Positions 1,681 through 40,609 of a stretch of 43,816 nucleotides of DNA are shown here, piece by piece. Each line of letters opens with the position of its first letter. Position 1 is the stretch's first letter. Below the pieces are notes generated by a model. That model was not told where the DNA came from and did no database searches. It was given only the letters and a program-made list of their open reading frames with translations. The position numbers and the translations under genes were made by a program. This stretch comes from an uncultured Bacteroidales bacterium (GTDB lineage: Bacteria; Bacteroidota; Bacteroidia; Bacteroidales; Paludibacteraceae): contig CACYGT010000023.1 of the NCBI GenBank assembly GCA_902774075.1, positions 1 to 43,816 on the forward strand, written 5' to 3'.

Positions 1681-1708
1681 GTGTACCGTGTAAAGTGTAC
1701 AGTGTATG
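1681..1708 (+). repeat. Heptamer array GTGTAnn x4 running into a start codon
   Basis: Four units of 7 bp (GTGTACC, GTGTAAA, GTGTACA, GTGTATG) fill the gap from the stop of the SDR gene at 1679 to the next gene; the last unit contains the ATG at 1706. The same word, AAGTGTA, forms the array at 28058-28085. Confidence 0.9.
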
Positions 1709-2581
1709 AAAAAAATATTCATTATTCATTATTCATTATTCATTCTCCTCTGCCTGACTGCATGTCAGAAAGAAGCCGTGCAGCCGAAGGTGTACGGGCG
1801 GTATGTGCCGGAGCGGAAGGATGACTTCGCTTGGGAGAACGAGTACGCGGCGTATCGTATGTACGGACCGGCGCTAAAGGGCGAGAACCCCTCGAACGGT
1901 GTAGACCTCTGGCTAAAAGCCAGACCGGAGTTGGTGGTGGACAGTTTCTACTACCGCGAACATGTGCTCGGCCTACCCTACCATATCAACTACGGCAAGG
2001 GCCTCGACTGCTACAAAGTGGGCCATACTTGCGGTTGTGGCGGATTGGTGGTGCTGACCGAAGAAGAGGGCGCGTACAAGACCTGGATTGGCGGGCCGTA
2101 TGACCGCTGGGAGATCCTCGAGCAGACCGCGGAGCGCTTTGTCTTTAAGCTCGAATATGACAGCCTGTTGGTGGCCGGACAGATATTGCACGAGTCGATC
2201 ATCATCACCGCCGAAGCGGGCAATGCGATGAACAAGGCGGAGGTGGTCCTGACGGACAATGGGAAATGGAAAATGGAGAATGGAAAATTACTCGTCGGCG
2301 GGGGTATTTATATGCATGACACGATCGACCACTGCGAGGTGTACGAGAAGATCGGAACGGTGTTCTATGAGGAAGAGGCGCTGAGCGATAAGACTGCGGC
2401 GCAGATGAACTTCGACCACAATGGCTCTATGAGCCAAGGCCGCATCTACATCACCGTGCAGACCCCCGGAGCGACGCTGACGGACATCCAGGATGGCAAC
2501 CTGGTGGCAGTCAAGCCGTATGAGCTGGGCGATACGCTGACATATTATTTCGGCGCGACGTGGAGCGAGTGGAAAGAGTGA
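1706..2581 (+). CDS. DUF4861 family lipoprotein
   Basis: Encodes 291 residues. A lipoprotein signal peptide ends at LLCLTAC (Cys about residue 20), so the mature protein is probably lipid-anchored outside the inner membrane. The segment RKDDFAWENEYAAYRMYGPA and the following NPSNGVDLW are typical of DUF4861, a family of unknown biochemistry often found in Bacteroidota loci for uronic-acid polysaccharides. Its position between a KduD-like dehydrogenase and an MFS permease agrees with that. Two heptamer arrays lie inside the gene: ATTCATT x4 encodes part of the signal peptide (IIHYSLFI), and AATGGAA-type units at 2258-2292 encode DNGKWKMENGKL in the body, where a surface loop would be expected. 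Confidence 0.85.
   Translation: MKKIFIIHYSLFILLCLTACQKEAVQPKVYGRYVPERKDDFAWENEYAAYRMYGPALKGENPSNGVDLWLKARPELVVDSFYYREHVLGLPYHINYGKGLDCYKVGHTCGCGGLVVLTEEEGAYKTWIGGPYDRWEILEQTAERFVFKLEYDSLLVAGQILHESIIITAEAGNAMNKAEVVLTDNGKWKMENGKLLVGGGIYMHDTIDHCEVYEKIGTVFYEEEALSDKTAAQMNFDHNGSMSQGRIYITVQTPGATLTDIQDGNLVAVKPYELGDTLTYYFGATWSEWKE
1717..1744 (+). repeat. Heptamer array ATTCATT x4 inside a signal peptide
   Basis: Four perfect copies of ATTCATT. Because 7 is not a multiple of 3, the array is read in all three phases and gives IIHYSLFI, the hydrophobic core of the DUF4861 signal peptide. Loss or gain of one unit would shift the frame within 13 codons of the start. Confidence 0.95.
2258..2292 (+). repeat. 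Heptamer array AATGGAA-type x4-5 in coding sequence
   Basis: Units AATGGGA, AATGGAA, AATGGAG, AATGGAA and a degraded AATTACT lie in the DUF4861 gene. The circular word TGGAAAA is the same as in the array at 29155-29182. Confidence 0.9.
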
Positions 2582-2636
2582 ATTTGAAATTTGAAATTTG
2601 AAATCATAAATTTGAAATCATAAATTTGAAATTATT
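2581..2636 (+). repeat. Heptamer array AATTTGA x8 between DUF4861 and MFS genes
   Basis: Eight consecutive 7-bp units: five AATTTGA, two AATCATA and a final AATTATT. The array starts at the last base of the DUF4861 stop codon and ends 6 bases before the ATG of the permease, so it makes up the whole spacer. The circular word TTTGAAA recurs at 9885-9933. Confidence 0.95.
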
Positions 2637-2642
2637 AATACT

Positions 2643-3896
2643 ATGAGTGCAAAACAGTCTAATTCTTTGAGAATTATTACGATCATTGCGATGATGTTTC
2701 TCTACGCGATGATTGCTTTTGTGACGAACCTGGCAGCTCCGGTGGGTAAGATCTGGGGCGCTTCGTTTGAGGATCCTGCGCAGGCAGAGCGTATGGGTAT
2801 GTTAGGCAACCTGTTTAACTTCCTGGCGTACCTGATTATGGGTATTCCGGCGGGTAACATCCTGGCCAAATACGGCTACAAACGTACGGCGCTGGTGGCT
2901 ATTTTTCTGGGCTTCATCGGCATCACGATTCAATGGCTGAGCGGTATGTTTGACAGCTTTGCTGTCTACCTGTGCGGCGCGCTGTTAGGCGGTTTCTGCG
3001 TATGTATGTTGAATACGGTGACGAACCCGATGCTGAACCTGTTAGGAGGCGGCGGCAACCGCGGTAACCAGTTGAACCTGGTAGGCGGCACCCTGAACTC
3101 GCTGAGTGGTGCGCTGACGCCTATGCTGGTCGGTGCGATCATCGGCGAGAGTCTTGTGGGAAAGCAGATTGACGATGTGAATGTAGTGTTGTACATTGCG
3201 ATGGTTGTCTTCGCAGTTGTTTATCTCGTCATTCGCATCACGCCGATCGCCGAGCCGCAAGCTACGGGAGACAAGGTGGTGTACGAGCGTACGCCGTGGT
3301 CGTTCCGTCACCTGACCTTAGGTGTGATCGCTATCTTCTTCTACGTGGGTGTAGAGGTAGGTATCCCGGCGACCTTGATCAGTTATCTGACGCCGAAAGT
3401 AGGCTTTGCAGCCGCAGGCCTGATTGCCGGCCGGTACTGGATACTGATGCTGGTAGGTCGGTTCATAGGTAGTGCTATCGGCGGTAGGGTCAGCAGTCGA
3501 ACGATGGTGATTTGCGTAGCCAGCGCCGCTATTGCGCTGCTGGCAGCCGCTATGCTGATCGGCGACAGTATCATGGTGAAGACCTATGTACAAAGAGCCA
3601 TCATCGACGTACCTCTGGCTTCGACGCTGTTGGTACTCTGCGGTCTGTGCACCTCGGTGATGTGGGGTTCGATCTTCAACATGGCTACCGAGGGACTCGG
3701 TAAGTACACCGCCAAGGCGTCGGGTATCTTCATGATGATGGTAGTCGGCGGCGGTATCGTGCCGCAGATACAGAGTATCGTAGCGGCGCACGATATTTTG
3801 CTCAGTTACATCGTTCCGCTCATCGGCGTAGCGTATATTCTGTTCTATGCCCTGTGGGGTAGCAAGAACGTCAATAAAGACATCAAGATCGACTGA
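2643..3896 (+). CDS. MFS sugar/uronate permease
   Basis: Encodes 417 residues with about 12 hydrophobic segments spread over its length, typical of the major facilitator superfamily. The N-terminal part (segment FNFLAYLIMGIPAGNILAKY, followed by GYKRT) carries the loop 2-3 signature and resembles the fucose/hexose-proton symporter group of Bacteroidota. It probably imports a monosaccharide or uronate across the inner membrane for the dehydrogenase two genes upstream. Substrate cannot be read from sequence. It is the last gene of its operon, followed by a terminator at 3922-3954. The whole spacer ahead of it is a heptamer array, so its ribosome-binding context is A/T repeat sequence with no Shine-Dalgarno motif, as is common in Bacteroidota. 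Confidence 0.85.
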   Translation: MSAKQSNSLRIITIIAMMFLYAMIAFVTNLAAPVGKIWGASFEDPAQAERMGMLGNLFNFLAYLIMGIPAGNILAKYGYKRTALVAIFLGFIGITIQWLSGMFDSFAVYLCGALLGGFCVCMLNTVTNPMLNLLGGGGNRGNQLNLVGGTLNSLSGALTPMLVGAIIGESLVGKQIDDVNVVLYIAMVVFAVVYLVIRITPIAEPQATGDKVVYERTPWSFRHLTLGVIAIFFYVGVEVGIPATLISYLTPKVGFAAAGLIAGRYWILMLVGRFIGSAIGGRVSSRTMVICVASAAIALLAAAMLIGDSIMVKTYVQRAIIDVPLASTLLVLCGLCTSVMWGSIFNMATEGLGKYTAKASGIFMMMVVGGGIVPQIQSIVAAHDILLSYIVPLIGVAYILFYALWGSKNVNKDIKID

Positions 3897-3954: not shown

Positions 3955-3963
3955 ACAATTTAC

Positions 3964-4013: not shown

Positions 4014-6209
4014 ATGCAGAAAAGCGAATTTACAGCGGAAGAAGAGTTGATGATTCAGCGTGAGTTTGAGGCGCTGCTGGACGACTATGCGCATACGCCC
4101 CACCGCCAGAAAGTGGAGCTGATCACGCATGCGTTTAACTTCGCGCACAAGGCGCATTACGGTGTCCGTCGTCTGAGCGGCGAGCCGTATATCATGCACC
4201 CCCTTGCTGTCGCGCGCATCTGCGTGAAGGAGATCGGTCTGGGCAGTACAAGTATCTGCTCTGCCTTGCTGCACGACGTAGTGGAGGACACGGACTATAC
4301 GGTAGAGGACATCTCGGGCCTGTTCGGCGATAAGATCGCGCAGATAGTAGCGGGTCTGACGAAGATCAGCGGCGGTGTGTTCGGTAGCCAGGCCAGCGAG
4401 CAGGCGGAGAACTTCCGTAAGCTGCTGCTGACCATCAGCGACGATATCCGCGTAGTGCTGATTAAGATTGCCGACCGCTTGCATAACATGCGTACGCTCG
4501 GTGCGCAGCCTAAGGACAAGCAGTACAAGATCGCCGGCGAGACGCAGTATATCTACGCACCGCTGGCGCACCGTCTGGGTCTGTTCCCCATCAAGACCGA
4601 ACTCGAGGACCTCAGTTTCAAATACGAGCACCCCGAGACTTGGCAGGAGATACACGACAAGCTCGAGGCCATCAAGAACAGCAAGTTAGAAGACTACGAG
4701 GTCTTCGCCAAGCCGATCCGCGAGCGCCTGGAGAGCATGGGTTATACGTTCACGATGCGCTGCCGTATCAAATCGGTCTATTCGATATGGAAGAAGATGA
4801 TGAGCAAGCAGTGCGCTTTCGAGGACGTGTATGACCTGATGGCCGTGCGTATCATCTTCACACCCCACGAGACAATGAGTGAGAAAGACCAGTGCTGGAT
4901 GATCTACTCCGCCATCACGGAGATCTACCGTCCGCACCCGGAGCGTATCCGCGACTGGATATCCACGCCGAAGGCGAACGGCTACGAGGCACTGCATGTG
5001 ACCGTGATGGGTAAGAACGGCGAGTGGGTCGAGGTACAGATCCGTACCGACCGCATGCATGAGATAGCCGAGCACGGCTATGCCGCGCACTGGAAATACA
5101 AGACCGGCGAGCAGGACGAGAGTGAGCTGGACAAGTGGCTGCAGGAGATCAAGGACATCCTCGCGCACCCGGACAAGGATGCGATGGAGTTCTTAGGCAC
5201 GTTCAAGCTCAATCTGTTCGCGCAAGAGGTGTTCGTCTTCACGCCCAAAGGCGAGATCAAGACGCTGCCGATGGGTGCGACAGCACTCGACTTCGCTTTC
5301 CTACTCCACTCCGATCTGGGCGAGCATTGTATCGGCGCGAAAGTCAACCATACGCTTGTGCCGCTCTCGTATCAGTTGAAGGGCGGTGACCAGATAGAGA
5401 TCTTGACCTCGAACAGCCAACATCCGCTGCCGGAGTGGCTCGATATCGTCACGACGGCGAAAGCCAAGAAGAGCCTCAACCAGTATTTCCAGCGCGAGGA
5501 GCGCAAGTACATCAAGCACGGTGAGCGCCTGGTGGAGGACGCGATAGCGATGGATAAGGAGTTGGCGGCTAACCACGATGCGGTCCTTCAGCGCCTGATG
5601 AACTACTACCATATCACGCAACCGACCGAACTGTACGCGCACGTAGGCCAGGGCGCGATACGGCTCGATAACATCCGCGAGATAGTCGTACCCAAACGAG
5701 GATGGCTGTCCTATATTCCGTTCTTGGGGAAGAAGGATGAGGGGTTACAGGTTAAGGGTGACGGGTTACAGGTTACGGGCTTAGGCAAGAAATATTTCCT
5801 GAGTCAATGCTGTCACCCCATCCCGGGCGACGAGGTGTTAGGTTACCTGGACGAGAACAACAAGATGCATATCCATAAGATCGACTGCCCTGAGGCGAAC
5901 CTCTTAAAGACCAGTTACGGCAAGCGTATCTACTCGGCGACCTGGAACACCCACCGCGTGCAGTCCTTCGTGGAGACGGTAGAGATCAAGGGTATCGATA
6001 AGTTCGGCGTGCTGATTCATATGCTGCAAACGATCACGACGGATTTCCATATCAACATGCGGTCCATCAACATCTCTAGCGACAATGGAATCTTCAAGGG
6101 CACGATGGAGCTCTACGTCTATGACCGCTCCGAACTGAATGACCTATTGAAAGCATTACGTAAGATAGACAACATCAAAGAAGTAAAACGATATGAAAAA
6201 GATTTTTAG
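4014..6209 (+). CDS. Bifunctional (p)ppGpp synthetase/hydrolase (RelA/SpoT homologue)
   Basis: Encodes 731 residues. I start at ATG 4014 because the promoter at 3964-3994 excludes the longer frame. Domains in order: HD hydrolase with intact HDxxED (HDVVEDTDY from residue 87), synthetase (RIKSVYSIWKKM, YDLMAVRII), TGS (VFTPKGEIKTLPMGATALDF), a zinc/RIS-type segment (CCHPIPGDEVLGY) and a C-terminal ACT domain. Both active sites look complete, so the enzyme should make and degrade (p)ppGpp in the stringent response. An atypical linker before the CCHPIPGD segment (DEGLQVKGDGLQVTG) is encoded by a heptamer array at 5742-5783. The 3' end overlaps the DUF1573 gene by 17 bases, implying translational coupling. 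Confidence 0.95.
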   Translation: MQKSEFTAEEELMIQREFEALLDDYAHTPHRQKVELITHAFNFAHKAHYGVRRLSGEPYIMHPLAVARICVKEIGLGSTSICSALLHDVVEDTDYTVEDISGLFGDKIAQIVAGLTKISGGVFGSQASEQAENFRKLLLTISDDIRVVLIKIADRLHNMRTLGAQPKDKQYKIAGETQYIYAPLAHRLGLFPIKTELEDLSFKYEHPETWQEIHDKLEAIKNSKLEDYEVFAKPIRERLESMGYTFTMRCRIKSVYSIWKKMMSKQCAFEDVYDLMAVRIIFTPHETMSEKDQCWMIYSAITEIYRPHPERIRDWISTPKANGYEALHVTVMGKNGEWVEVQIRTDRMHEIAEHGYAAHWKYKTGEQDESELDKWLQEIKDILAHPDKDAMEFLGTFKLNLFAQEVFVFTPKGEIKTLPMGATALDFAFLLHSDLGEHCIGAKVNHTLVPLSYQLKGGDQIEILTSNSQHPLPEWLDIVTTAKAKKSLNQYFQREERKYIKHGERLVEDAIAMDKELAANHDAVLQRLMNYYHITQPTELYAHVGQGAIRLDNIREIVVPKRGWLSYIPFLGKKDEGLQVKGDGLQVTGLGKKYFLSQCCHPIPGDEVLGYLDENNKMHIHKIDCPEANLLKTSYGKRIYSATWNTHRVQSFVETVEIKGIDKFGVLIHMLQTITTDFHINMRSINISSDNGIFKGTMELYVYDRSELNDLLKALRKIDNIKEVKRYEKDF
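5742..5783 (+). repeat. Heptamer array (GGGTTAC/AGGTTAC) in the relA-type gene
   Basis: Six 7-bp units, GGGTTAC, AGGTTAA, GGGTGAC, GGGTTAC, AGGTTAC, GGGCTTA; the third matches more loosely. It encodes the linker between the TGS-side helical region and the CCHP zinc segment. Six units equal 42 bp, so the array keeps the reading frame. Confidence 0.85.
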
Positions 6210-7293: not shown

Positions 7294-8387
7294 TCGACCA
7301 TCCGGAAAATAGTGCTGAATACAAAGGCTTGACCGTCAATGCAGGCGTAGAGAACCTGCCGAGCGTCAATCCCTATGCGACTTTCCGCCGTAAGAAGACG
7401 GTGTTGACCCCCGAGCAGTATTTCGAGGGCATCCGTCGCGGGGACTTGACGATCCTCAGCCAGGCGGTGACGCTGGTGGAGAGCAGTCTGCTGTCCGACC
7501 AGGCCATCGCGCAGAAAGTAATTGAGCTCTGCCTACCCTACGCCGGTAACTCGATACGTGTAGGTATCACCGGTGTGCCGGGCGCAGGCAAGTCCACTTT
7601 CATCGAGGCGCTGGGAAGTGAGCTATGCAACCAAGACAAGAAACTGGCAGTGCTGGCTATTGACCCGTCGAGCGAACGGAGCCGCGGTTCGATACTGGGC
7701 GACAAGACACGCATGAACGAGTTGTCCGTCAAGTCCAATGCTTTCATCCGTCCCAGCCCGAGTGCGGGTTCATTAGGCGGTGTAGCACGTAAGACCCGCG
7801 AGACGATCGTGCTCTGCGAAGCAGCCGGCTTTGATACGGTGCTGTTGGAGACGGTCGGTGTCGGTCAGTCCGAGACGGCTGCCCACTCCATGGTGGACTA
7901 TTTCCTGCTGCTTCAGGTCACCGGTACAGGCGACGAACTGCAAGGTATCAAACGCGGTATCATGGAGATGGCAGACGGCATCGCGATCAACAAATGCGAT
8001 GGAAATAATATGGAACGCGCACGCGCCTCGCGCGTAAGCTTCAAGAACGCCCTCGCACTCTTCCCTCCCTCCGAGAGCGGATGGAAACCCGATGCGCTCT
8101 GCTGCTCCTCCATCGACCACAGCGGCGTGATGGACGTATGGCATAACATCGAAGAGTATATCGAGTTCACCAAAGCGAACGGTTTCTTCGACCGCCATCG
8201 TACCGAGCAGGCCAAGTACTGGATGTACGAGACGATCAACCAGAGCCTCTTGGATGGCTTTTATAAGAACGAACAAATGGAGCACCAGATAGAAGTAGCA
8301 GAAAGACAGGTGCTTAATAACGAGATAAGCAGTTTCATTGCTGCACATAACTTAATTACCGAATATGGCAAACTCAACAGGAAATAG
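7290..8387 (+). CDS. meaB: MeaB-type GTPase (methylmalonyl-CoA mutase chaperone)
   Basis: Encodes 365 residues. ATG 7290 overlaps the preceding stop as ATGA and is preferred over GTG 7275. The P-loop GVPGAGKST is at about residues 95-103; further motifs are IDPSSERSRGSILGDK, RPSPSAGSLGGVARKTRE and ETVGVGQSE, all specific to the MeaB/ArgK branch of G3E GTPases. Family members load and protect the B12 cofactor of methylmalonyl-CoA mutase in the propionate/succinate pathway. The mutase genes are not in this window. The gene overlaps dnaB by 23 bases. Confidence 0.93.
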   Translation: MIDHPENSAEYKGLTVNAGVENLPSVNPYATFRRKKTVLTPEQYFEGIRRGDLTILSQAVTLVESSLLSDQAIAQKVIELCLPYAGNSIRVGITGVPGAGKSTFIEALGSELCNQDKKLAVLAIDPSSERSRGSILGDKTRMNELSVKSNAFIRPSPSAGSLGGVARKTRETIVLCEAAGFDTVLLETVGVGQSETAAHSMVDYFLLLQVTGTGDELQGIKRGIMEMADGIAINKCDGNNMERARASRVSFKNALALFPPSESGWKPDALCCSSIDHSGVMDVWHNIEEYIEFTKANGFFDRHRTEQAKYWMYETINQSLLDGFYKNEQMEHQIEVAERQVLNNEISSFIAAHNLITEYGKLNRK

Positions 8388-9885
8388 TCGCAAACGCGCG
8401 CCCCAGACGACGATCATCAAGGTAGGTGCCAATGAGATGGGTAAGTTACCCCCTCAGGCGCAAGAGCTGGAGGACTCCGTTCTCGGCGCATTGATGATAG
8501 AGAAAGACGCATACGGAACGGTCGCAGACCTGCTGCGCCCGGAGGTCTTCTATAAAGACCAGAACCGTATGGTATATGAGGCGATCCGTGAGTTAGCCTC
8601 CCAAGACCAGCCTATCGACATGCTGTCGGTAGCGGAGAAGATGAAGAGTCAGGGCACGCTGGACAAAGCCGGCGGTGCTATCTATCTGGCCGAACTGACC
8701 CGTCGTGTGGCCTCTACGGCTCACCTGCGGTATCACGCGGAGATAGTAGCCAAGAAAGCAACGGCTCGCGATGTTATTGCGCTTGCGGCGCAGATCGAAG
8801 AGATGGGATACGACGAGACGCAGGATGTCGATGAACTGATGCAGACCGCCGAAGCCGGTATCTTCGAGATCAGCCAGCGCAGCCAGAAACGAGATGTGAC
8901 GCAGATAGACCCGGTCATCGAAGAGGCCTTTAAGCGTATGGAGAAAGCGGCCAAGAACACCGGTTCTATCTCCGGTATCCCGTCGGGCTTCACCGCGCTC
9001 GATAAGATCACATCCGGTTGGCAGACGCCTGACCTCATCATCATCGCCGCCCGCCCGGCCATGGGTAAGACTGCTTTCGTGCTCTCGATGGCTAAGAACA
9101 TCGCAGTGGACCGTAACATCCCTGTCGCTATCTTCTCGCTGGAGATGAGTAATGTACAGCTCGTCAATCGTCTGATTATGAACGTTTGCGAGCTCGAAGG
9201 CGACCGTATCAAGACCGGTAAGATGAGTCAGGAAGAGACACGCAAACTGAACACGAAGATCAACATCATGAAGGGCAAACCGCTCTACTTGGACGATACC
9301 CCTTCGCTCTCGATCTTTGAGTTACGCTCCAAAGCCCGTAAGCTCGTTCGTGAGCACGGCGTACGTATGATCATCATTGACTACCTGCAGCTGATGAACG
9401 CGAGCGGAACATCCTTCGGTAGCCGTGAGCAGGAGGTGAGTATCATCTCCCGCGGTCTGAAAGGACTCGCCAAAGAGCTGGATATACCTATCATCGCCCT
9501 CTCGCAGTTGAACCGCGGTGTAGAAGCACGTCAGGGTGTAGAAGGCAAGACCCCGCAGCTAAGTGACTTGCGTGAGTCGGGTGCTATCGAGCAAGATGCC
9601 GACCTCGTATGTTTCATTCACAGGCCGGAGTACTACCACCTGTATAATGACGACAAGACCGGCAAGGACCTGCGCGGCCTGGCACAGATCATCGTAGCCA
9701 AGCACCGTAATGGTGCGACCGACAGCATATGGCTTCGCTTCCGCGGTAAGTACGCGAAGTTCCAGAACGAGGACGAGGCCATCGATGCCGATGAGTTGGC
9801 ACCGATACCGGCTGCAAGCGAGACCGTCTCGATTCAGTCGAGTATGAACAGTTTAGGAGAAGACCTGAGTCAATTTACATTGTAA
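8365..9885 (+). CDS. dnaB: Replicative DNA helicase DnaB
   Basis: Encodes 506 residues. The N-terminal primase-interacting domain begins at PPQAQELEDSVLGALM, and the RecA-like motor has Walker A ARPAMGKTAF (about residue 228 onward), Walker B IIIDYLQLM and the motif LSQLNRGVEAR. The lid segment DLRESGAIEQDADLV is conserved. It unwinds DNA ahead of the replication fork. The start codon lies inside the meaB end, and the spacer to asnS is entirely a heptamer array. No intein is present; the length is normal for the family. Confidence 0.96.
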   Translation: MANSTGNSRKRAPQTTIIKVGANEMGKLPPQAQELEDSVLGALMIEKDAYGTVADLLRPEVFYKDQNRMVYEAIRELASQDQPIDMLSVAEKMKSQGTLDKAGGAIYLAELTRRVASTAHLRYHAEIVAKKATARDVIALAAQIEEMGYDETQDVDELMQTAEAGIFEISQRSQKRDVTQIDPVIEEAFKRMEKAAKNTGSISGIPSGFTALDKITSGWQTPDLIIIAARPAMGKTAFVLSMAKNIAVDRNIPVAIFSLEMSNVQLVNRLIMNVCELEGDRIKTGKMSQEETRKLNTKINIMKGKPLYLDDTPSLSIFELRSKARKLVREHGVRMIIIDYLQLMNASGTSFGSREQEVSIISRGLKGLAKELDIPIIALSQLNRGVEARQGVEGKTPQLSDLRESGAIEQDADLVCFIHRPEYYHLYNDDKTGKDLRGLAQIIVAKHRNGATDSIWLRFRGKYAKFQNEDEAIDADELAPIPAASETVSIQSSMNSLGEDLSQFTL

Positions 9886-9933
9886 ATTGATATTTGATAT
9901 TTGAGATTTGAGATTTGAAATTTGAAATTTATA
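9885..9933 (+). repeat. Heptamer array ATTTGAR x7 between dnaB and asnS
   Basis: Seven 7-bp units: AATTGAT, ATTTGAT, two ATTTGAG, two ATTTGAA, ATTTATA. It begins at the last base of the dnaB stop and ends 6 bases before the asnS ATG, exactly as the array at 2581-2636 does before its gene. The central word TTTGAAA is shared by both. Confidence 0.95.
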
Positions 9934-24653: not shown

Positions 24654-24672
24654 CGTGCTAAAATTGTACAAT

Positions 24673-26453: not shown

Positions 26454-27091
26454 AGGGACGTCTGTCTCACATAGTAGTTCTTGCTCTTTGCTCCTTGTTC
26501 CTGACTATCGCCGGCTGCCGTCCGCGGGGTATTCTGCACTCCGGGAAGATGCGCGATGTGCTGGTCGATCTGCATAAGACCGAGGCGCTGATGGTCGTTC
26601 ATAACTACCACCACGGCTACGAGGAACAGCGTGCTTATTACTACGCCGAGGTGCTCGAGAAACACGGTGTGACGCAAGCGGAGTTTGACTCTTCGCTCGT
26701 CTGGTACACTGCACATCCGAAGCTGTTTGATAAGATTTATCCAAAGGTAATGCGACAACTGCACGCAGAGCAAGACGCTTTCTTGGCGGCACATGCAGAA
26801 GAACTGCAGATACAGCCGCGCGGCAAACTGGACAAGCAACAAGCCCCTACGATCACGCAGGAACAGATCGACAGTATCAACTGGGTAATGCTGCACGGAC
26901 TCCCTACTCTATGGAATCCGATGCCCGACAAAGAGTTCTCATTAATAGTCGACGATGCTACACCGCATAAACCGGCAGAGCCTGTCAAAGCAGAAGAAGC
27001 GGAAGAAAAGCATACGATAGAGATACCTAATGAAGAATCTTATAAATCAGCTCCTTCCAGAGATCGGCGTCCTTTGCGGAAGGATTATTAA
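26450..27091 (+). CDS. DUF4296 domain lipoprotein
   Basis: Encodes 213 residues. The lipoprotein signal ends at LTIAGC (Cys about residue 23). The segment MRDVLVDLHKTEALM, with the following VLEKHGVTQAEFDSSLVWYTAHP, is typical of DUF4296, a small Bacteroidota family of unknown function that often follows lspA. The C-terminal third is charged and probably disordered. Its last 65 bases overlap the end of holA on the opposite strand. Confidence 0.87.
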   Translation: MKGRLSHIVVLALCSLFLTIAGCRPRGILHSGKMRDVLVDLHKTEALMVVHNYHHGYEEQRAYYYAEVLEKHGVTQAEFDSSLVWYTAHPKLFDKIYPKVMRQLHAEQDAFLAAHAEELQIQPRGKLDKQQAPTITQEQIDSINWVMLHGLPTLWNPMPDKEFSLIVDDATPHKPAEPVKAEEAEEKHTIEIPNEESYKSAPSRDRRPLRKDY

Positions 27092-28058: not shown

Positions 28059-28085
28059 ACACTTTACACTATACGCCTTACACCA
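28058..28085 (-). repeat. Heptamer array AAGTGTA-type x4 supplying the holA start
   Basis: Four 7-bp units, written on the plus strand as TACACTT, TACACTA, TACGCCT and TACACCA. It runs from the base next to the stop of the upstream gene (28086) exactly to the holA start codon. It is the same word as the array at 1681-1708, which also ends in an ATG. Confidence 0.93.
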
Positions 28086-29183
28086 TTATTCCCAATGCCT
28101 GTCCGGAGCAAAAAGTCGTTTTAATCCGCTCAACCAGATTGCCCATTTCACATGCCGCGCATAACTTGGACTGTATACTGCCAGCTTCTCGGCCTTCGCC
28201 ATCCGCTCTTTCATCGTTCTCCACTTGCGCACAAAGCGGTTCTTCTTCTCGCTTCCCACAGCGCTCGCGGTCTCACTTCTCACAAACTCAGCCGGTCTTT
28301 CCATCATCGCCTCCAGCAGTCTCTCGGCCCGTTTACGAGTCATTTCCGAGTCGTTTACGAGGGTTCTTATAGTCAATCCTAGACTTCGCACCAGTATATT
28401 AGCATATAAATACCATATTTCCAGCAAGTTAAGCTGCTTTAACCAAAGCTCCAAAAGTGGCCAATTGATCTTTTCATTATAGTGATTAATCAGCATCGCC
28501 AGGTCACATAACTGCCTTATGCACGCGCCCTCTGTCGTCATATGCTCCCAGGAGTGCAAGAAGATCAGCAGCGTGTTGAATGTTGGCTCAAACACCTTCA
28601 CTTCTAACCCATTCACCGACAAGCGCTCACTATGAGCCCTTCCAAATTCTTCCATCTTCGCGTAAAGCCGTATATCTCGAGGATGCGTCAGCGCAACTGT
28701 CACCCGATGAACCTCGATCGACACCCCATCGGGGATGAGGTTATAGTGCTTATAGTGGTCCAACTCTTCGTCGAACTTCAGCGCGTCGGGGAAAGTCTCG
28801 CGCAGCACCGCACACGCAGGATGGTATTGCTCTTTGCCCACAAACAGGTCGATATCTGACCAATGCCGCATACTCATCTCCTGATAGAGGGCTGCTATCC
28901 CTGCCCCTTTCATCAGTACCGCCTCTATCCCCGCTGCCTCCAGCGCTTTCCAAGCCTTGACCAGAGTATATTGCAACTTCACCTGTTCCTGTATATTCCG
29001 CACGCACACGCTCTTCATCTCTTGTGTCATAGGCACCAAGGGAAAAACCAGTGTGGCCGTCCCCTGCTGTAGATGCATCTGGACCCACTCATCGCTGACA
29101 GGTCCCGGCGTAAACGGCTCTTGCCACAAGGCCGCGCGGATCGGTTGGAAAAAATTTTCCATTTTCAATTTTCCATTTTCCAT
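28086..29183 (-). CDS. Nucleotidyltransferase-like protein (NTP_transf_5 type)
   Basis: Encodes 365 residues from ATG 29183; ATG 29162 is also possible and both lie in a heptamer array. The segment VLMKGAGIAALYQ, followed by RHWSDIDLFVG, has the G-x-(S/D)DIDL pattern of the uncharacterised nucleotidyltransferase family PF14907. A following helical region with many Trp and Leu completes the fold. Family members occur near exopolysaccharide or peptide-modification genes. Here it lies between a sugar transferase and holA. The activity is unproven. Confidence 0.8.
   Translation of the reverse strand: MENGKLKMENFFQPIRAALWQEPFTPGPVSDEWVQMHLQQGTATLVFPLVPMTQEMKSVCVRNIQEQVKLQYTLVKAWKALEAAGIEAVLMKGAGIAALYQEMSMRHWSDIDLFVGKEQYHPACAVLRETFPDALKFDEELDHYKHYNLIPDGVSIEVHRVTVALTHPRDIRLYAKMEEFGRAHSERLSVNGLEVKVFEPTFNTLLIFLHSWEHMTTEGACIRQLCDLAMLINHYNEKINWPLLELWLKQLNLLEIWYLYANILVRSLGLTIRTLVNDSEMTRKRAERLLEAMMERPAEFVRSETASAVGSEKKNRFVRKWRTMKERMAKAEKLAVYSPSYARHVKWAIWLSGLKRLFAPDRHWE
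29155..29182 (-). repeat. Heptamer array TGGAAAA x4 at a gene start
   Basis: Units TTTTCCA, TTTTCAA, TTTTCCA, TTTTCCA on the plus strand, encoding MENGKLKMENF on the minus strand. The same word is at 2258-2292, where the protein reads WKMENGKL. Confidence 0.95.
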
Positions 29184-29186
29184 TTC

Positions 29187-32077: not shown

Positions 32078-33028
32078 ATGGCATTTTTCGGATTATTCAG
32101 TAAAGAGAAAAAAGAGACACTCGACCGCGGACTTGAACGCAGCAAAGAGAGTGTGCTCAGCAAGATAGGACACGCGATCGCCGGCAAGTCCACGATTGAC
32201 GATGATGTGCTCGATAACTTGGAGGAGGCCCTTATCACCTCTGATGTGGGTGTTGAGACCACTCTCCGTATAATCGAACGCGTACAGGCGCGCGTGAAGC
32301 GGGATAAGTATATCGGTACAGACGAGTTAAACCGCCTGCTGGTGGATGAGATAGCGTCCTTGCTGCAGGAGAATAACGTGGAGGACGTGCTGGACTTCAG
32401 TGCTCCCCTGCCCTGCAAGCCGTATGTGATCATGGTCGTAGGCGTCAACGGCGTCGGGAAGACCACTACCATCGGTAAGTTGGCTTATCAGTTCAAAGCA
32501 GCCGGAAAGAAAGTGTACCTCGGTGCAGCCGATACCTTCCGCGCCGCGGCTGTCGAACAACTCTGCATATGGGGCGAGCGCGTTGGGGTGCCGGTCATCA
32601 AGCAGCAACAGGGTTCGGACCCTGCCTCTGTGGCCTTCGACACCCTGCAGTCCGCCAAAGCCAATGATGCCGACGTCGTACTCATCGACACAGCCGGTCG
32701 TCTGCATAACAAGATCAACCTGATGAACGAACTCACGAAGATCAAGAATGTGATGCAGAAAGTGGTTCCCGATGCACCGCACGATGTGATGCTCGTGCTG
32801 GACGGCTCTACCGGACAGAATGCTTTCGAACAAGCGAAGCAGTTTACTGCGGCTACCCAAGTCACCTCGCTCGCCATCACCAAACTGGACGGAACCGCCA
32901 AAGGCGGCGTCGTCATTGGTATCAGCGATCAGTTTAAGATACCGGTTAAGTACATCGGACTCGGCGAAAAGATGACTGATCTGCAGTGCTTCAACCGCGA
33001 AGAGTTCGTCAAATCATTGATATTATAA
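32078..33028 (+). CDS. ftsY: Signal recognition particle receptor FtsY
   Basis: Encodes 316 residues. A short N-terminal helical part and the N domain (LSKIGHAIAGKSTIDDDVLD) precede the G domain with G1 GVNGVGKTT at 122-130, DTFRAAAVEQL, DTAGRL, TKLDGTAKGG and GLGEKMTDL. The acidic A domain of gamma-proteobacteria is absent, as is usual in Bacteroidota. It docks ribosomes carrying membrane proteins at the translocon. Confidence 0.96.
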   Translation: MAFFGLFSKEKKETLDRGLERSKESVLSKIGHAIAGKSTIDDDVLDNLEEALITSDVGVETTLRIIERVQARVKRDKYIGTDELNRLLVDEIASLLQENNVEDVLDFSAPLPCKPYVIMVVGVNGVGKTTTIGKLAYQFKAAGKKVYLGAADTFRAAAVEQLCIWGERVGVPVIKQQQGSDPASVAFDTLQSAKANDADVVLIDTAGRLHNKINLMNELTKIKNVMQKVVPDAPHDVMLVLDGSTGQNAFEQAKQFTAATQVTSLAITKLDGTAKGGVVIGISDQFKIPVKYIGLGEKMTDLQCFNREEFVKSLIL

Positions 33029-33063
33029 ACATTATTCATATAACCCACACAAAATTTAAACAC

Positions 33064-34488
33064 ATGGAAACATCATTCATTACCCCCCGAGGCGTTACAC
33101 TTCACCGTGTTGAATCGGATTTATTAGGCGAACTGGAAGTACCGGTAGATGCGTACTATGGTGTCCAGACCCAGCGCGGCATCAACAACTACAAGGTGTC
33201 TAACCTGAAGATGTCGGACTTCCCCGAGTATATCATCGCGATCGCCTATATCAAGTTGGCTGCCGTAGAAGCCAACCATGATCTGGGTGTCATCAACGAC
33301 GAGAAATACAAAGCGATCGCACAGGCTTGCCGTGAGATCATTGACGGCAAGATGCACGACCAGTTCCCCACCGATATGGTACAGGGCGGAGCCGGAACAA
33401 CCGTCAACATGAATGCCAATGAGGTGATCGCCAACCGTGCTCTGGAGATTATGGGACACCGCCGCGGTGAGTACCAATACTGCTCTCCGAACGACGATGT
33501 CAACTGCGCACAATCCACCAACGACGCGTATCCATCTGCTTTCCGCTATGCTTTTATTCGCATGAATCGCGGTCTCGAAGATGAGTTGGTAAAACTAATA
33601 GACTCTCTTCGCAAGAAAGGCGACGAGTTTAATGATTCTATCAAGATGGGACGTACACAGCTCCAAGATGCCGTACCGATGACCAGCGGACAGGAGTTTC
33701 ATGCCTTTGCTAATAACCTCGAAGAAGAGATTGCTAACCTCGAGCGCAGCATCAAACTGCTCTATGAAATCAATATGGGCGGTACGGCTATCGGAACTGG
33801 TCTGAATGCTGTTGCAGGATACGCTGAACTATGCACCAAGAAGTTGTGCGAGTTAACCGGAGAGCCGTTCACCAAAGCAAGTGACCTCATCGAAGCAACG
33901 CCCGATACAGGCGCCTATGTCAGCTACTCCGCTGCTCTCAAACGTCTGGCGGTCAAACTCAGTAAGACCTGTAATGACCTGCGCCTGATGGCCAGCGGTC
34001 CCCGTTGCGGCCTGCATGAGATCAACCTGCCGCCTATGGCACCGGGTAGTTCCATCATGCCGGGAAAGGTGAACCCGGTTATTCCGGAGGTTACGAACCA
34101 AGTATGCTTCAAGGTCATCGGTAATGACACCGCTGTTACCTTTGCCGCAGAAGCCGGACAGTTACAGTTGAATGTGATGGAGCCTATCATCACCGAGTGT
34201 ATCTTCGAGTCTATCACTTGGCTGCGTAATGTGATGAAGATCCTCCGCGAGAAATGTATCGACGGCATCACCCTCAACCGCGAGCATAATGCCCAGACCG
34301 TAAAGAACTCCATCGGTATCGTCACAGCCCTCAACCCTGTGATCGGTTATAAGGCTTCGACCAAGATCGCCAAGGAGGCGTTGGAGACAGGAAGAGGCGT
34401 ATATGACTTAGTGCTCGAGCATGGCTTGCTGAGCAAGGAACAACTGGACGACCTGCTCAACCCGGCGAACATGCTGGCAGCCAAATAA
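33064..34488 (+). CDS. aspA: Aspartate ammonia-lyase
   Basis: Encodes 474 residues from ATG 33064, after a 35-base spacer. Motifs: VDAYYGVQTQRGINNY, the substrate loop GSSIMPGKVNPV (about 327-338) and TNDAYPSAFR. The fumarase/aspartase fold fits AspA by length and sequence. It converts aspartate to fumarate and ammonia, feeding fumarate respiration in anaerobes. It ends the serB operon. A heptamer array follows its stop at once, then a terminator. Confidence 0.94.
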   Translation: METSFITPRGVTLHRVESDLLGELEVPVDAYYGVQTQRGINNYKVSNLKMSDFPEYIIAIAYIKLAAVEANHDLGVINDEKYKAIAQACREIIDGKMHDQFPTDMVQGGAGTTVNMNANEVIANRALEIMGHRRGEYQYCSPNDDVNCAQSTNDAYPSAFRYAFIRMNRGLEDELVKLIDSLRKKGDEFNDSIKMGRTQLQDAVPMTSGQEFHAFANNLEEEIANLERSIKLLYEINMGGTAIGTGLNAVAGYAELCTKKLCELTGEPFTKASDLIEATPDTGAYVSYSAALKRLAVKLSKTCNDLRLMASGPRCGLHEINLPPMAPGSSIMPGKVNPVIPEVTNQVCFKVIGNDTAVTFAAEAGQLQLNVMEPIITECIFESITWLRNVMKILREKCIDGITLNREHNAQTVKNSIGIVTALNPVIGYKASTKIAKEALETGRGVYDLVLEHGLLSKEQLDDLLNPANMLAAK

Positions 34489-34514
34489 TACATCAGACAC
34501 AATACATCATACAT
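34487..34514 (+). repeat. Heptamer array AATACAT-type x4 after aspA
   Basis: Units AATACAT, CAGACAC, AATACAT, CATACAT begin within the aspA stop codon and end next to the terminator stem. Confidence 0.82.
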
Positions 34515-34551: not shown

Positions 34552-35853
34552 TTAGCGTCTTATACTTCCGCCTCCGGAGCGGCTACTTCCACCGCCTCCA
34601 CCGGAACGACTGCTGCCTCCACTGAATCCGCCGCCTCCACTGCTGCGGGAGCTACCTGAATAGGAACCACTGCTGCTACGCGAACTTCCGGAATAAGTGC
34701 TACTCGGACGAGAACTGCTGCTGGTACTGCGGCTGCTACTTGTTGCGCTCGATTTTGTGTAGGTAGAGCGAGTCGAGGTACTTGCCGTCGAGCGAGTTGC
34801 TGTGCCTGTAGAACGAGTCGAGGTACTTGCCGTCGAGCGAGTTGCTGTGCCTGTAGAACGAGTCGATTTGCCTATAGAACGCCCTACCGAAGTACCTGCG
34901 CTCTTGCTGCCCGTATTGATCGAACGGCTTACCGAACCTGTGGATCTGGTCGAGGTGCCTGCGCTGCGAGAAGATACGGTGTTTGCGCTACCGAAAGTAC
35001 GGCTGCTATTGCTTGCTGAACGTTCTGCAGTTCCTACGCTGCGAGAACTGTTCATATTGCCATAAGCACTACCTCTGGAGCTGCCCATACCTGCGCTACG
35101 GCTGCTGACACTATGGGTATTCCGTATCTCGCGAGCGTTGATCAGACCGGTGTTACGGTTGTTGAACGAACGATCCGGATGGGATACCGCGTATTCGTTG
35201 CGACGAACGGTCGGATGTAAGTCATGATAGCCGCGTCTGATCTCGCGTCCCGGACGGAATGAGCACCAGTGGTGATGATGATGCCAGGCGTAGCAGTGAT
35301 GCCAATACCAGTCATGTGCCCAGCAGCTGTGTACATACCACCAACTCGGCCAAAAATCCCAATACCAAGGACTATTCCATGCATACCATGCATCGCACCA
35401 AAGCCAGTCATAGATAACAGGTCTGTAAACATATACCGGCTCGATGATATACGCTTTACCGTACACATATTCGTCACCGATAACTTGAACGGACACATTG
35501 TTACTCTCGTCTTTTTCTACGTAGATAGAAGCTACGTCCTGATATATATCCTTTGCGAGGATAGCCTGCAAGACGATAAGACGCTTGCTTCCTTCACCCG
35601 TTTCTACTACGCGCAGATAGTCCACTTGACCGTCGCCATTGAGGTCGAGGTTGCAGAACGCGCTATCGGGGTTGTTGAGCATCGTTTCGAACTCTTCCAG
35701 GTTCTTAGCCTCTGCAAACAGCTTAGCTACAACCTTCAAGTCGAGTCCTTCCGAGATGTCAGAACTGTTGGCAGAAACCGTGATCGTTTCGTCTGCCCAA
35801 AGCGCCGTGCTCATCAGCATCAACGCCATCAGAAGTGTAGTTAACTTTTTCAT
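34552..35853 (-). CDS. Secreted protein with EF-hand-like loop, His/Trp/Tyr-rich core and Ser/Arg repeats
   Basis: Encodes 433 residues with a signal peptide (MKKLTTLLMALMLMSTALWA). Residues 25-140 form a folded domain with an EF-hand-like segment DLNGDGQVDYLRV. Next is a stretch dense in Trp, Tyr, His and Cys at about 150-215 (for example HDWYWHHCYAWHHHHHW). The last 200 residues are low-complexity Ser/Arg/Thr, then Gly/Ser, with an exact 45-bp duplication. The N-terminal domain is familiar from Bacteroidota proteins of unknown function. The His/Cys stretch suggests metal or heme binding, unproven. It is the last gene of the cdd-lptF-ribBA run. Confidence 0.8.
   Translation of the reverse strand: MKKLTTLLMALMLMSTALWADETITVSANSSDISEGLDLKVVAKLFAEAKNLEEFETMLNNPDSAFCNLDLNGDGQVDYLRVVETGEGSKRLIVLQAILAKDIYQDVASIYVEKDESNNVSVQVIGDEYVYGKAYIIEPVYVYRPVIYDWLWCDAWYAWNSPWYWDFWPSWWYVHSCWAHDWYWHHCYAWHHHHHWCSFRPGREIRRGYHDLHPTVRRNEYAVSHPDRSFNNRNTGLINAREIRNTHSVSSRSAGMGSSRGSAYGNMNSSRSVGTAERSASNSSRTFGSANTVSSRSAGTSTRSTGSVSRSINTGSKSAGTSVGRSIGKSTRSTGTATRSTASTSTRSTGTATRSTASTSTRSTYTKSSATSSSRSTSSSSRPSSTYSGSSRSSSGSYSGSSRSSGGGGFSGGSSRSGGGGGSSRSGGGSIRR
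34771..34860 (-). repeat. 45-bp tandem duplication in the Ser/Arg-rich tail
   Basis: Two identical 45-bp copies (34771-34815 and 34816-34860) encode a 15-residue unit of the STRSTGTATRSTAST type. Confidence 0.95.
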
Positions 35854-35883: not shown

Positions 35884-35911
35884 TTTCACTTTTCACCTTT
35901 CACTTTTCAAT
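35884..35911 (-). repeat. Heptamer array TTTCACT x4 between ribBA and the next gene
   Basis: Units TTTCACT, TTTCACC, TTTCACT, TTTCAAT (plus strand), located between the ribBA stop (35935) and the start of the His/Trp-rich protein gene (35853). Confidence 0.93.
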
Positions 35912-35934: not shown

Positions 35935-37197
35935 TTACACCAGCTTCAGATCATGATGCATTTTCTCTTTTTTGGTACGCATATAGCGTTCGTTCCATCG
36001 GTTAGGCGCTATCTCAATTGGCACATTCTCAACGATTTCAATGCCGTAACTCTCCAGACCGACACGTTTGACAGGGTTGTTGGTCATCAGCCTCAGTTTA
36101 TGCGCACCCATCTCGCGCAATATCTGTGCACCTACGCCGTAATTGCGTTCGTCCGGACGGAAACCGAGGTGAATATTAGCCTCTACGGTATCGTCTCCCT
36201 GCTCTTGCAGTTTATACGCGCGGATCTTGTTCATCAGGCCTATACCCCGCCCTTCCTGGTTCATATAGACGATGATACCCCGCCCTTCGGCTTCTATCAT
36301 CTGCATCGCCTTGGTGAGTTGTTCGCCGCACTCGCATCGCATGGAACCGAAGATATCTCCGGTCATACAACTGGAGTGCACACGACAGAGGATCGGTTCG
36401 TTTTCCTTCCATTCCCCTTTGGTGAGCACTACATGCTCAAGTCCGGTCGTCAGATCCCTAAAGGGCGTCAACATAAACTCTCCGTTCTGCGTCGGAAGGA
36501 ATACCGTCTCACCGCGCTCGATAAGACCGCTGGCACTACCGGATGTGAGACCGGCTTCGACTGTTAGACCGCCTTCGGCTGCTAGACCTTCTTTCTCCAA
36601 CCTATAGGCGATGAGGTCCTTGATGGTAATGATCTTGAGGTCAAACTTACGCGCCACTTCTTGCAGTTGCGGCATACGGGCCATCGTGCCATCGGCGTTC
36701 ATGATCTCAATCAGTGCAGCAGCTGGTTGCAGTCCTGCCAGACGTGCCAAGTCCACACCTGCCTCTGTGTGTCCTGCACGTTGTAGCACCCCGCCTGCGC
36801 GCGCATAGAGCGGGTTGATATGTCCGGGACGACCGAAGGTCTCCGGCTTACTAGCAGGGTCCGCTAAGGCCTGTATCGTCGCAGCTCGGTCGGCAGCAGA
36901 GACACCGGTCGTGCAGCCCTCTAACTTATCTACCGTCACTGTGAACGGCGTTCCCAGCATCGAGGTGTTATTGGCTACCTGGTGCATCAAGTCCAGTTCG
37001 GCACATCGCTGCTCTGTGATCGGGCAGCACAGCACACCGCGACCATGCTTGAGCATGAAGTTGACTTTCTCCGGCGTTATCTTCTCCGCCGCGATGATGA
37101 AATCACCTTCGTTCTCTCGGTCTTCGTCGTCCACAACAATCAGGAACTTACCTTGACGAAAATCGTCCAATGCTTCTTCTATCGTATTAATCTTCAT
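35935..37197 (-). CDS. ribBA: Bifunctional DHBP synthase / GTP cyclohydrolase II
   Basis: Encodes 420 residues. N-terminal Rib[22 protein letters not shown] and [23 protein letters not shown]-terminal Rib[22 protein letters not shown] (zinc cysteines), [17 protein letters not shown] and RTKKEKM at the end. It produces two precursors of riboflavin. The linker has a six-residue repeat ([18 protein letters not shown]). It overlaps the LptF/G-like gene by 11 bases. Confidence 0.96.
36537..36593 (-). repeat. 18-bp period repeat in the RibB-RibA linker
   Basis: Three diverged 18-bp units encode [12 protein letters not shown] and GLTSGS, giving a flexible linker between the two enzyme domains. It is in frame and imperfect. 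Confidence 0.6.
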
Positions 37198-39141: not shown

Positions 39142-39208
39142 ACTATTGATGGGTTAAATATTTCTCAAAAATAAATCAAAAATAAGTCGATAGTGTATAA
39201 AATGCATG

Positions 39209-39239
39209 CAAAGGTACAACAAAAAAATGATATATGCAA
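39209..39239 (-). promoter_or_regulatory. Promoter of cdd operon
   Basis: On the minus strand, TTGC at 39239 and TACCTTTG at 39216-39209; the upstream half is TTGCATATATCA. The TTG lies only 7 bases from the divergent mtaB TTG at 39246. Confidence 0.87.
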
Positions 39240-39245
39240 AAAAAT

Positions 39246-39276
39246 TTGCATAATTGCAAAATTTTTAGTACTTTTG
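39246..39276 (+). promoter_or_regulatory. Promoter of mtaB
   Basis: TTGC at 39246 and TACTTTTG at 39269-39276. ATG 39287 follows after 10 bases, so the message would be almost leaderless. Confidence 0.85.
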
Positions 39277-39286
39277 CAGCCGATTT

Positions 39287-40609
39287 ATGAAAATATCCTT
39301 TACCACATTAGGCTGTAAGCTCAATTTTGCGGAGTCAAGCGCGCTGGGTAAGGCGCTTATTGAGCGCGGTCATACGCGCGCAGCGAGAGGCGAGGAAGCC
39401 GATGTATGTGTTATCAACACCTGCACCGTCACTGACGCGGCTGATCATAAAGACCGGCAGATGATACACCGTATACGGAGGCAGAACCCGAAAGCAATAT
39501 TGATCGTCACCGGCTGCTATGCGCAGTTAAAGCCCGATGAAATCGTACAGATTGAGGGGGTCGATTATGTGTTGGGGCAGGATGAAAAATTCCGACTAGC
39601 GGAATTTATTCATCGTTTAGAGTTGAGAATTCTTTGCCTGTCGTCACGATCTGAAGGTATGGAGAGTTTAGAGGAGTCAAGAGTCAAGAGTCAAGAGTCA
39701 AGAGTAATTACTTCAGCGATTCGGGAGGTGGAGGATTTTCACGGGGCGTATAGCAAGGATGACCGGACGCGGTGCTTTCTGAAGGTACAGGACGGGTGTA
39801 ACTATTTCTGCAGTTATTGCACGATTCCTCTGGCGCGCGGAAAGAGCCGGAATCCGTCGATCGCTTCGCTGGTAGAACAGGCACAAGCGGCCTTGGACGG
39901 CGGAGCCAAGGAGATCATATTATCCGGCGTCAACATCGGCGATTTCGGGCGTTCTACCGATGAGAAATTCATTGATTTACTGCGTGCTTTAGACGCATTG
40001 AACGGCGAGTATAGAATCCGTATCTCGAGTTGTGAGCCGAACTTGCTGAGCGATGAGATCATTGATTTTGTGGCGAATAGTAGTCATTTCGCTCCTCACT
40101 TCCATATTCCTCTGCAGAGCGGAAGTAATACGGTACTGAAGATTATGGGACGGCGGTACACCCGCGAGCTGTTTGCGGAAAGGGTTGAACATATCAAGCG
40201 TGTGATGCCGCATGCGTTCATCGGTGTGGACTGTATGGTCGGCGTACGCGGAGAGACGGCCGAGTGCTGGGCCGATTATATCGATTTCATCGAAGGATTG
40301 CCGGTCTCCCAGCTGCATGTGTTCACCTACTCGGAGCGGGCGAACACACGTATGCTCGAGATGGATCTGGAGGTGGTACCGCAAAAAGAACGCGAACGGC
40401 GGAGCAAAGAATTGCATCTTATCAGCGCCCGCAAGACGGCCGCTTTCTATGCCGAGCACGCAGGCTATCCCGCGACCGTACTATGGGAGAGCAGTAAGAA
40501 AGACGGCTTGATGTTCGGTTTTACGGAGAACTATATCAAGGTGAGTTGTCCGTACGACAAGACTAAGATAAACACGTTTGAGCACATAAACGTGCCGCTT
40601 GTTCATTAG
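39287..40609 (+). CDS. mtaB: tRNA t6A37 methylthiotransferase MtaB
   Basis: Encodes 440 residues. The N-terminal domain has cluster cysteines Cys10, Cys46 and Cys77 (LGCKLNF, INTCTVT, TGCYAQ). The radical-SAM domain has Cys171, Cys175 and Cys178 (CNYFCSYC). It adds a methylthio group to t6A37 in tRNA. Between the two domains is an unusual insert of about 30 residues, partly encoded by a GAGTCAA array (residues 129-141, ESRVKSQESRV). The 3' end overlaps the opposite gene by 47 bases. Confidence 0.94.
   Translation: MKISFTTLGCKLNFAESSALGKALIERGHTRAARGEEADVCVINTCTVTDAADHKDRQMIHRIRRQNPKAILIVTGCYAQLKPDEIVQIEGVDYVLGQDEKFRLAEFIHRLELRILCLSSRSEGMESLEESRVKSQESRVITSAIREVEDFHGAYSKDDRTRCFLKVQDGCNYFCSYCTIPLARGKSRNPSIASLVEQAQAALDGGAKEIILSGVNIGDFGRSTDEKFIDLLRALDALNGEYRIRISSCEPNLLSDEIIDFVANSSHFAPHFHIPLQSGSNTVLKIMGRRYTRELFAERVEHIKRVMPHAFIGVDCMVGVRGETAECWADYIDFIEGLPVSQLHVFTYSERANTRMLEMDLEVVPQKERERRSKELHLISARKTAAFYAEHAGYPATVLWESSKKDGLMFGFTENYIKVSCPYDKTKINTFEHINVPLVH
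39674..39708 (+). repeat. Heptamer array GAGTCAA x4-5 in mtaB
   Basis: Four perfect copies of GAGTCAA and a fifth, GAGTAAT; a partial GAGTTTA lies upstream, out of phase. It encodes ESRVKSQESRV in the interdomain linker. Confidence 0.95.

Follow-up and report, generated by a model that had tools for sequence, protein, structure and literature searches.

Heptanucleotide repeat arrays with genome-specific words and fast turnover within one genus of Paludibacteraceae

Why does one bacterial genome carry the same 7-bp words in tandem arrays at places far apart? The question is raised by a stretch of 43,816 nucleotides from an uncultured Bacteroidales bacterium of the family Paludibacteraceae (contig CACYGT010000023.1, assembly GCA_902774075.1), here called the window, in which the original prediction, made from the letters alone, had named eleven arrays with a period of exactly 7 bp and three words common to unlinked loci. 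By comparing these arrays with those elsewhere in the window's own genome, labeled G000 (an assembly of 1.8 Mb in 95 contigs, 86% completeness), and in other genomes (all other G numbers), we found that the word of an array follows the genome more than the site. This genome-specific use of words is called a dialect below. Judged by the AsnRS-like protein, UBA4295 is the closest named record (96%), followed by rumen Paludibacteraceae (93 to 89%).

Tandem Repeats Finder (TRF) returned all eleven loci as period-7 arrays, and the recurring words are as claimed: AAGTGTA at 1681 and 28058, TGGAAAA at 2258 and 29155, and TTTGAAA at 2581 and 9885. Seven arrays (1712, 2257, 2581, 9884, 29153, 35884 and 39670) also passed a stricter test of at least 18 of 21 matches at offset 7; those at 1677, 5742, 28058 and 34488 are real and degenerate. 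By the stricter test the window holds no array at periods 4 to 6, 8 and 10, while periods 9 and 11 have one apiece. Ten Markov shuffles of the window gave no period-7 array. A twelfth, degenerate array had been placed at 16709; about two copies are present there, with no TRF call. TRF added one weak period-7 array at 26480-26502.

Period 7 is a genome-wide property of the window's own genome. An unbiased 404-kb sample of G000 contained 42 period-7 arrays, whereas every other period between 4 and 13 had between 0 and 5 (0, 5 and 0 at periods 6, 8 and 10, over which an excess had been predicted); periods 14 and 21, as multiples of 7, gave 17 and 7. Unbiased samples of other genomes yielded 46 arrays in 360 kb (G034), 20 in 220 kb (G006), 17 in 200 kb (G079) and 3 in 119 kb (G128), and three rounds of Markov shuffles of the unbiased genome samples yielded none. 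Copy number lies between 3 and 8 in 174 of 184 arrays; a four-unit peak like the one described in Xanthomonas was dropped from consideration, since it depends on the detection threshold.

The 46 arrays of G000 use 25 consensus words, and sharing of words among them exceeded the expectation from composition 6.35-fold (p 0.001), as the original prediction implied; the excess was 5.9-fold in G034, 11-fold in G006, 18-fold in G079 and 6-fold (p 0.04) in G022. These word tests partly used stretches that had been picked for hits (in G006, in G022, on contigs C4 and C20 of G000, and one in G048). Seeds were matched as lone 7-mers. Relative to those at gene junctions, sharing among G000 arrays was about 16-fold higher (0.0325 versus 0.0021, p 0.0005), and it was significantly higher in G000, G034, G006 and G079 alike (about 11- to 72-fold, p 0.006 or less); relative to stop-spanning 7-mers it was significant in three of the four genomes. 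Among 125 unbiased arrays, with G022, G128 and the picked stretches excluded, words matched more often within genomes than between them (0.0446 versus 0.0147, p 0.0002), most strongly in G079 (0.132). Gene-internal arrays likewise matched junction arrays at 0.034 in the same genome versus 0.016 (p 0.007).

The dialect reaches down to one base. In arrays of the word AATTGAN, the free base is A in 12 of 12 arrays of G109; among the matches listed, 9 of 11 arrays in G122 have G, and in both G129 (19 arrays) and G106 (13 arrays) every array but one has T or C. In a set of 83 arrays from 10 genomes, obtained by merging the listed places by hand and with the single-array genomes G026, G029, G061 and G078 excluded, genome gave an R2 of 0.68 for the free base, versus 0.11 in the permutation null (p 5e-5). 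In the window's own genome the AATTGAN arrays are all A in 9 of 10 cases (p 0.0001 versus the lone-word share). Lone words do not track the dialect: the free base of lone AATTGAN is nearly flat in G000, G034, G006 and G079 and less so in G011 and G028 (T 0.55 in G028, n 44), these shares coming from other genomes than the ten of the R2 test. Phylogenetic inertia was rejected as the source of the dialect, as AsnRS divergence gave a Mantel rho of 0.00 (p 0.49; 25/30 genomes with at least 10 matches).

Comparison of orthologous junctions showed how quickly single sites change. At the dnaB-AsnRS junction, compared in 30 genomes, several have a spacer of 3 nt, and others hold TTTGANA, TTGAAAG, AATTGAN, AAAGACA or TTTTTGA arrays; relA and the DUF1573 gene overlap in some species and elsewhere have arrays such as TTTAAAG, TTGAAAG, TGTGTAA or AATTAAA between them. 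Across 1305 orthologous junction pairs, which form 105 groups and are not independent, arrays stood on both sides in 43, on one side in 243 and on neither in 1019. The word was identical in one of the 43 two-array pairs and different in 42. Array sites are partly reused, and words are poorly kept.

The arrays were followed through the genus and beyond. Whole-genome counts of 121 genus members placed TTTGANA arrays in 57 genomes and AATTGAN arrays in 75, with widely differing ratios. Genus members selected for zero TTTGANA matches, the array-poor genomes of this comparison, had two period-7 arrays in 20 stretches (270 kb), both in G027, and an order-wide sample of 20 genomes (266 kb) had three. 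Elsewhere in the phylum AATTGAN arrays were found in 29 of 197 other genomes, some of them near-uniform, such as those with T in G190 (8/8 matches) and G236 (20/21). TTTANAG, the reversed pattern of TTTGANA, makes an unclean control, being a word in its own right in some species (24 matches in G139); the reversed control of AATTGAN is rarer (0 to 5 per genus genome). On contigs classed as viral, TTTGANA was found in 39 stretches versus 13 reversed and AATTGAN in at least 120 versus 28 reversed. Viral-classed contigs, obtained through the AATTGAN search, also carry several period-7 arrays each, in which words recur; the counts are 10 in 28 kb, 11 in 29 kb and 4 in 9 kb (L327, L358 and L371, on one IMG/VR contig; L325, L357 and L374; L364). 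Period 11 is the second commonest period (window 20014-20063; also L057, L058, L060, L063, L064 and L069), and in the sampled array-poor congeners it exceeds period 7 (7 versus 2 arrays in 270 kb).

Genes were called by a custom script. Of the 46 arrays of G000, 23 occupy codirectional spacers and 14 are gene-internal; a further 7 fall in gaps between convergent or divergent genes, and the last 2 stand at stretch edges. Noncoding sequence is 14% of the DNA. Many spacers show the order stop codon, array, ATG, as between dnaB and AsnRS, and many arrays stand near start codons; in some the first unit contains the stop codon. In phase-variation (contingency) repeats, a change of copy number between strains switches a surface gene; the genes that adjoin or hold the window arrays include dnaB, AsnRS, relA and DNA polymerase III delta. 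The window arrays are given below, with the evidence in brackets (ORF, open reading frame).

1677 to 1706, plus strand: degenerate AAGTGTA array, 4.3 copies, 78%, spanning the intergenic stretch that separates an SDR gene (876-1679) from a DUF4861 gene, its 3' end being the ATG at 1706 (TRF, ORFs, Pfam).
1716 to 1744, plus strand: perfect TATTCAT array, 4.1 copies, 100%, in the N-terminal coding region of the DUF4861 gene (1706-2581); the coded region is signal-peptide-like, judged by inspection only (TRF, reading frame).
2254 to 2288, plus strand: TGGAAAA array within the DUF4861 gene (TRF, sequence).
2581 to 2639 (2581-2633 by TRF), plus strand: TTTGAAA array with TTTGAAATCATAAA variants, from the DUF4861 stop codon through the spacer to an MFS transporter gene (2643-3896) (TRF, ORFs, Pfam).
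5733 to 5779 (5742-5779 by TRF), plus strand: GGGTTACAGGTTACG array, in frame, within the relA/spoT linker (TRF, Pfam, alignment with 19 congeners).
9887 to 9930, plus strand: TTTGATA-TTTGAGA-TTTGAAA array occupying the spacer between dnaB (8365-9885) and the gene for an AsnRS-like class II aminoacyl-tRNA synthetase (ATG at 9940) (TRF, Pfam).
28058 to 28083, minus strand: degenerate AAGTGTA array occupying the spacer that separates an NTP_transf_5 gene (28086-29183, minus) from the DNA polymerase III delta gene (27027-28058, minus), and ending in the delta ATG (TRF, ORFs, Pfam).
29154 to 29185, minus strand: TGGAAAA array overlapping the start of the NTP_transf_5 gene, whose true start is uncertain because several ATGs lie within (TRF, ORFs, Pfam).
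34487 to 34514 (34488-34514 by TRF), no strand assigned: degenerate ATACATC array in the convergent gap past a fumarase/aspartase-type lyase gene (32986-34488) (TRF, ORFs, Pfam).
35884 to 35909, minus strand: TTTCACT array within the spacer that separates a ribBA-type gene (35935-37197, minus) from a 433-aa ORF (34552-35853, minus) (TRF, ORFs, Pfam).
39674 to 39705, plus strand: perfect GAGTCAA array, 4.6 copies, 100%, in frame in the part of a 440-aa ORF (39287-40609) that separates its UPF0004 and Radical_SAM domains (TRF, ORFs, Pfam).

The relA linker that holds the array of the window is strongly variable in length and sequence among 19 congeners, several of which carry other repeats there. 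These RelA/SpoT-type linkers (window about 5730-5790; L104, L114) have different repeats per species, including a 15-nt type in G002 (VQGVQEVQG...). Repeats of other kinds also occur in the window: a perfect 27-bp tandem duplication (9 codons, 25363-25417) in the S-adenosylmethionine synthetase gene (24655-25953), near the border of the middle and C-terminal domains, and a 45-bp unit present 2.3 times at 98% (34763-34866) in the 433-aa ORF, which has no Pfam match.

Orientation and length bear on how the arrays arise and survive. Among codirectional-spacer arrays that touch the upstream stop codon, in all species sampled, 41 had stops in their sense word alone and 8 in their antisense word alone; the corresponding counts were 11 and 9 in codirectional-spacer arrays not touching a stop, 6 and 7 in non-codirectional gaps, and 7 and 29 within genes. 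The pattern looks like a sieve more than an RNA signal, and a stop-codon insulator function was rejected, as there is no orientation bias away from stops. Array lengths avoid near-multiples of 7, with residues 0 and 1 in 35 of 245 arrays versus 70 expected, and the excess over shuffles sets in at 16-19 bp, not at 14-15 bp. These lengths are consistent with arrays that start from short repeats spaced by 7 bp, which slippage would require. Clustering of the arrays was rejected (5 neighbors within 300 bp versus 5.7 expected).

The original prediction had also considered an unknown element that carries the arrays. No flanking sequence was common to same-dialect arrays at 20 loci, each locus finding only itself, and hence no carrier element was seen. 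Nor does such an element gain support from the order of variant units, which is shared only slightly above its reversed-order control. A MITE-type (miniature inverted-repeat transposable element) mobile element with an internal minisatellite was rejected for the same lack of common flanks. In the 184-array set 65 flank pairs matched; among the 39 listed, many are orthologous or adjacent and a few within G034 are unexplained. In G122, L267 and L269 lie on different contigs and have in common a compound string, GGTGATTGGAGAATTGAG plus further units, along which the word shifts stepwise; this single case is suggestive of whole-array copying. In G109, at L271 and L276, a CGAAAG-type array abuts an AATTGAA array of opposite orientation across GAAAG...CTTTC, with a possible hairpin at the joint. 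Loss of mismatch repair was rejected as well, with MutS_I in 33 of 33 genomes (MutL was not searched for).

Our tentative but leading explanation is that these are heptanucleotide long simple sequence repeat arrays in fast birth, turnover and homogenization across the genus, through slippage births combined with exchange of units between unlinked arrays. An array would be born by slippage or microduplication of 7 nt at a place where a few bases already recur at that distance, and would persist mostly where a 7-nt insertion or deletion does little harm, at or after a stop codon, in intercistronic spacers, in protein linkers and at N-termini. Within one genome, words would move from array to unlinked array, with template switching or annealing across one or two units as the probable route, and species would drift to their own vocabulary while single sites quickly gain, lose and rewrite arrays. 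Slippage near stop codons and in AT-rich spacers can account for site and orientation and not for the dialect, because lone words do not follow the dialect; unit exchange would account for the dialect, the mixed T/C arrays of G129 and the missing shared flanks. The earlier statement that independent slippage would not give the same words was therefore too strong as to site and orientation and held for the genome-specific excess, and the suggested dispersal of heptamer seeds or conversion is partly supported, the genome-linked sharing being what either would produce. With more reserve, we regard it as possible that heptamer words spread in trans, short arrays seeding or overwriting others chromosome-wide without a carrier, which would be a concerted evolution of 7-bp words at unlinked loci and would give rise to new dialects between sister species. 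The measured patterns do not require a function.

Several observations weigh against this combination of slippage and exchange. Exchange between arrays was never seen directly. The order of variant units was shared in 52 pairs versus 43 in the reversed-order control within genomes and in 51 versus 44 between genomes; whole-array copying is not claimed on so slight an excess, and exchange, if real, would shift few units per event. No word was shared among the 6 arrays of G128, sharing in G006 was not above the stop-spanning seed pool (p 0.16), and G006 by itself showed no dialect relative to G000 (0.0211 within G006, 0.0202 between the two). The 43 two-array pairs derive from just 9 junctions, and sites were reused above chance (43 pairs versus about 19 expected if independent); since the words were within one base of each other in 8 of the 43 orthologous pairs versus 37 of 300 non-orthologous ones, the reuse and the slightly closer words indicate some site effect. 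The length rule is weaker for arrays of at least 21 bp (Rayleigh p 0.05; perfect arrays 0.36).

A genome-specific preference of replication or repair, in which the polymerase or helicase of each species slips 7 nt best on certain words without any exchange, is unlikely, although it would yield a dialect with neither common flanks nor a common unit order. It is suited by the distribution of a Y-family polymerase family (PF00817), which was detected in 17 of 17 genomes rich in arrays and in 9 of 16 poor in them (Fisher p 0.003), a lead confounded by phylogeny; the statistic ignores phylogeny and the three families tried, and "poor" is defined by two word families only. The preference would also have to be unusually fine, because the dialect can change by one base (AATTGAA in G109, AATTGAG in G122) with the rest of the word constant.

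Purely local slippage, by which every array expands its own seed, similar seeds at stop and start codons give recurring words and selection sieves the rest, seems quite unlikely. The sense-stop bias of stop-touching arrays (41 versus 8), the length residues suggestive of short-repeat seeds, the first units that hold a stop codon and the G006 result against stop-spanning seeds all agree with it. However, sharing exceeded the junction seed pool about 11- to 72-fold in four genomes, and gene-internal arrays, which are not stop-seeded, share words with junction arrays of the same genome. As a lone word, AATTATC occurs no more often in G079 than in G000 (lone-word values 1.71 and 2.24), yet it makes up 6 of 17 arrays in G079 and 0 of 42 in G000.

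It is improbable that the arrays are functional sites bound by a protein that recognizes DNA or RNA, the role MacGregor suggested for TAACTGA repeats, with the words of each species following its regulator. Many spacer arrays do stand near start codons, and a common regulator would need a common word across loci, but arrays occur within genes too, a genome has many words, and the orientation bias is gone away from stop codons. The different words in 42 of 43 orthologous pairs (9 junctions) argue against conserved regulatory sites as a general explanation. Insertion of ready-made arrays by a mobile element or from a reverse-transcribed template, which identical words at unlinked sites and the abrupt word replacement beside a conserved stop codon (GTGTAAG in G000, TTGACAA in G034) might suggest, is highly improbable given the 20 same-dialect loci without common flanks, the tens of words that would require many templates, and the scarcity of reverse transcriptase (RVT_1 in 7 of 33 incomplete genomes, 3 of 17 array-rich and 4 of 16 array-poor, with none found in G000).

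The arrays belong to a known class of heptamer repeats. In most of the prokaryotic genomes studied, tandem heptamers are reported to be the commonest kind of long simple repeat, and DNA polymerase slippage has been proposed for them (Mrazek et al. 2007, as given in PMC4679880 and PMC4692102). The arrays of G000 are of this kind, being longer than chance allows in the genome (42 in 404 kb, 0 in shuffles), and differ in their many words per genome, the site-by-site comparison in one genus and the genome-specific word use. The original prediction, which knew of no mechanism described in Bacteroidales, was too strong here, as TAACTGA repeats are reported from Beggiatoaceae, cyanobacteria and five Bacteroidetes including Paludibacter propionicigenes, some with other heptamer repeats beside them (MacGregor 2015, PMC4679880). 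Like those, the present arrays are mostly intergenic 7-bp words at many loci per genome, and TAATTGA, a rotation of the AATTGAT found here, is one base from TAACTGA. TAACTGA often lies just 5' of a start codon; in G000, 23 of 46 arrays lie in codirectional spacers, with an orientation bias only in arrays touching the upstream stop. Unlike TAACTGA, a single word whose related heptamers are rarely or never repeated, the words here are many and differ among congeners; TAACTGA is absent from the 25 consensus words of the 46 G000 arrays, and no single word dominates.

The GGGAATC and GGGGA(C/T)T heptamers of Xanthomonas and Nostoc also occupy many intergenic sites, form G-quadruplexes, and vary widely in length and sequence between two related species at junctions that are mostly shared (PMC4692102). 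Common words here, AAATTTC, AAATATC, AAATCTC and AATTATC, have no G-tract, which argues against G-quadruplex formation as a general explanation; a few words such as AACCCGT have one. Short-repeat satellite families such as GATAGRA of Chloroflexus aurantiacus, for which a possible transposition mechanism was suggested, resemble the arrays in that one short word is conserved genome-wide; by the search used there they consist of larger units or 14-nt dimers, and in the part of PMC6749651 covered they come without comparison of orthologous sites. In the literature searched, which left out most subscription journals, we found no report of within-genus word replacement with genome-wide dialects, and these fast-changing dialects within one genus are the new part. 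Why the unit is seven, and why one heptamer stands at many sites of a genome, was left open in the papers covered, which deal with Beggiatoaceae, Xanthomonas and Nostoc. Where many species of a genus are sequenced and have different words at shared junctions, the birth, loss and exchange of such arrays become measurable.

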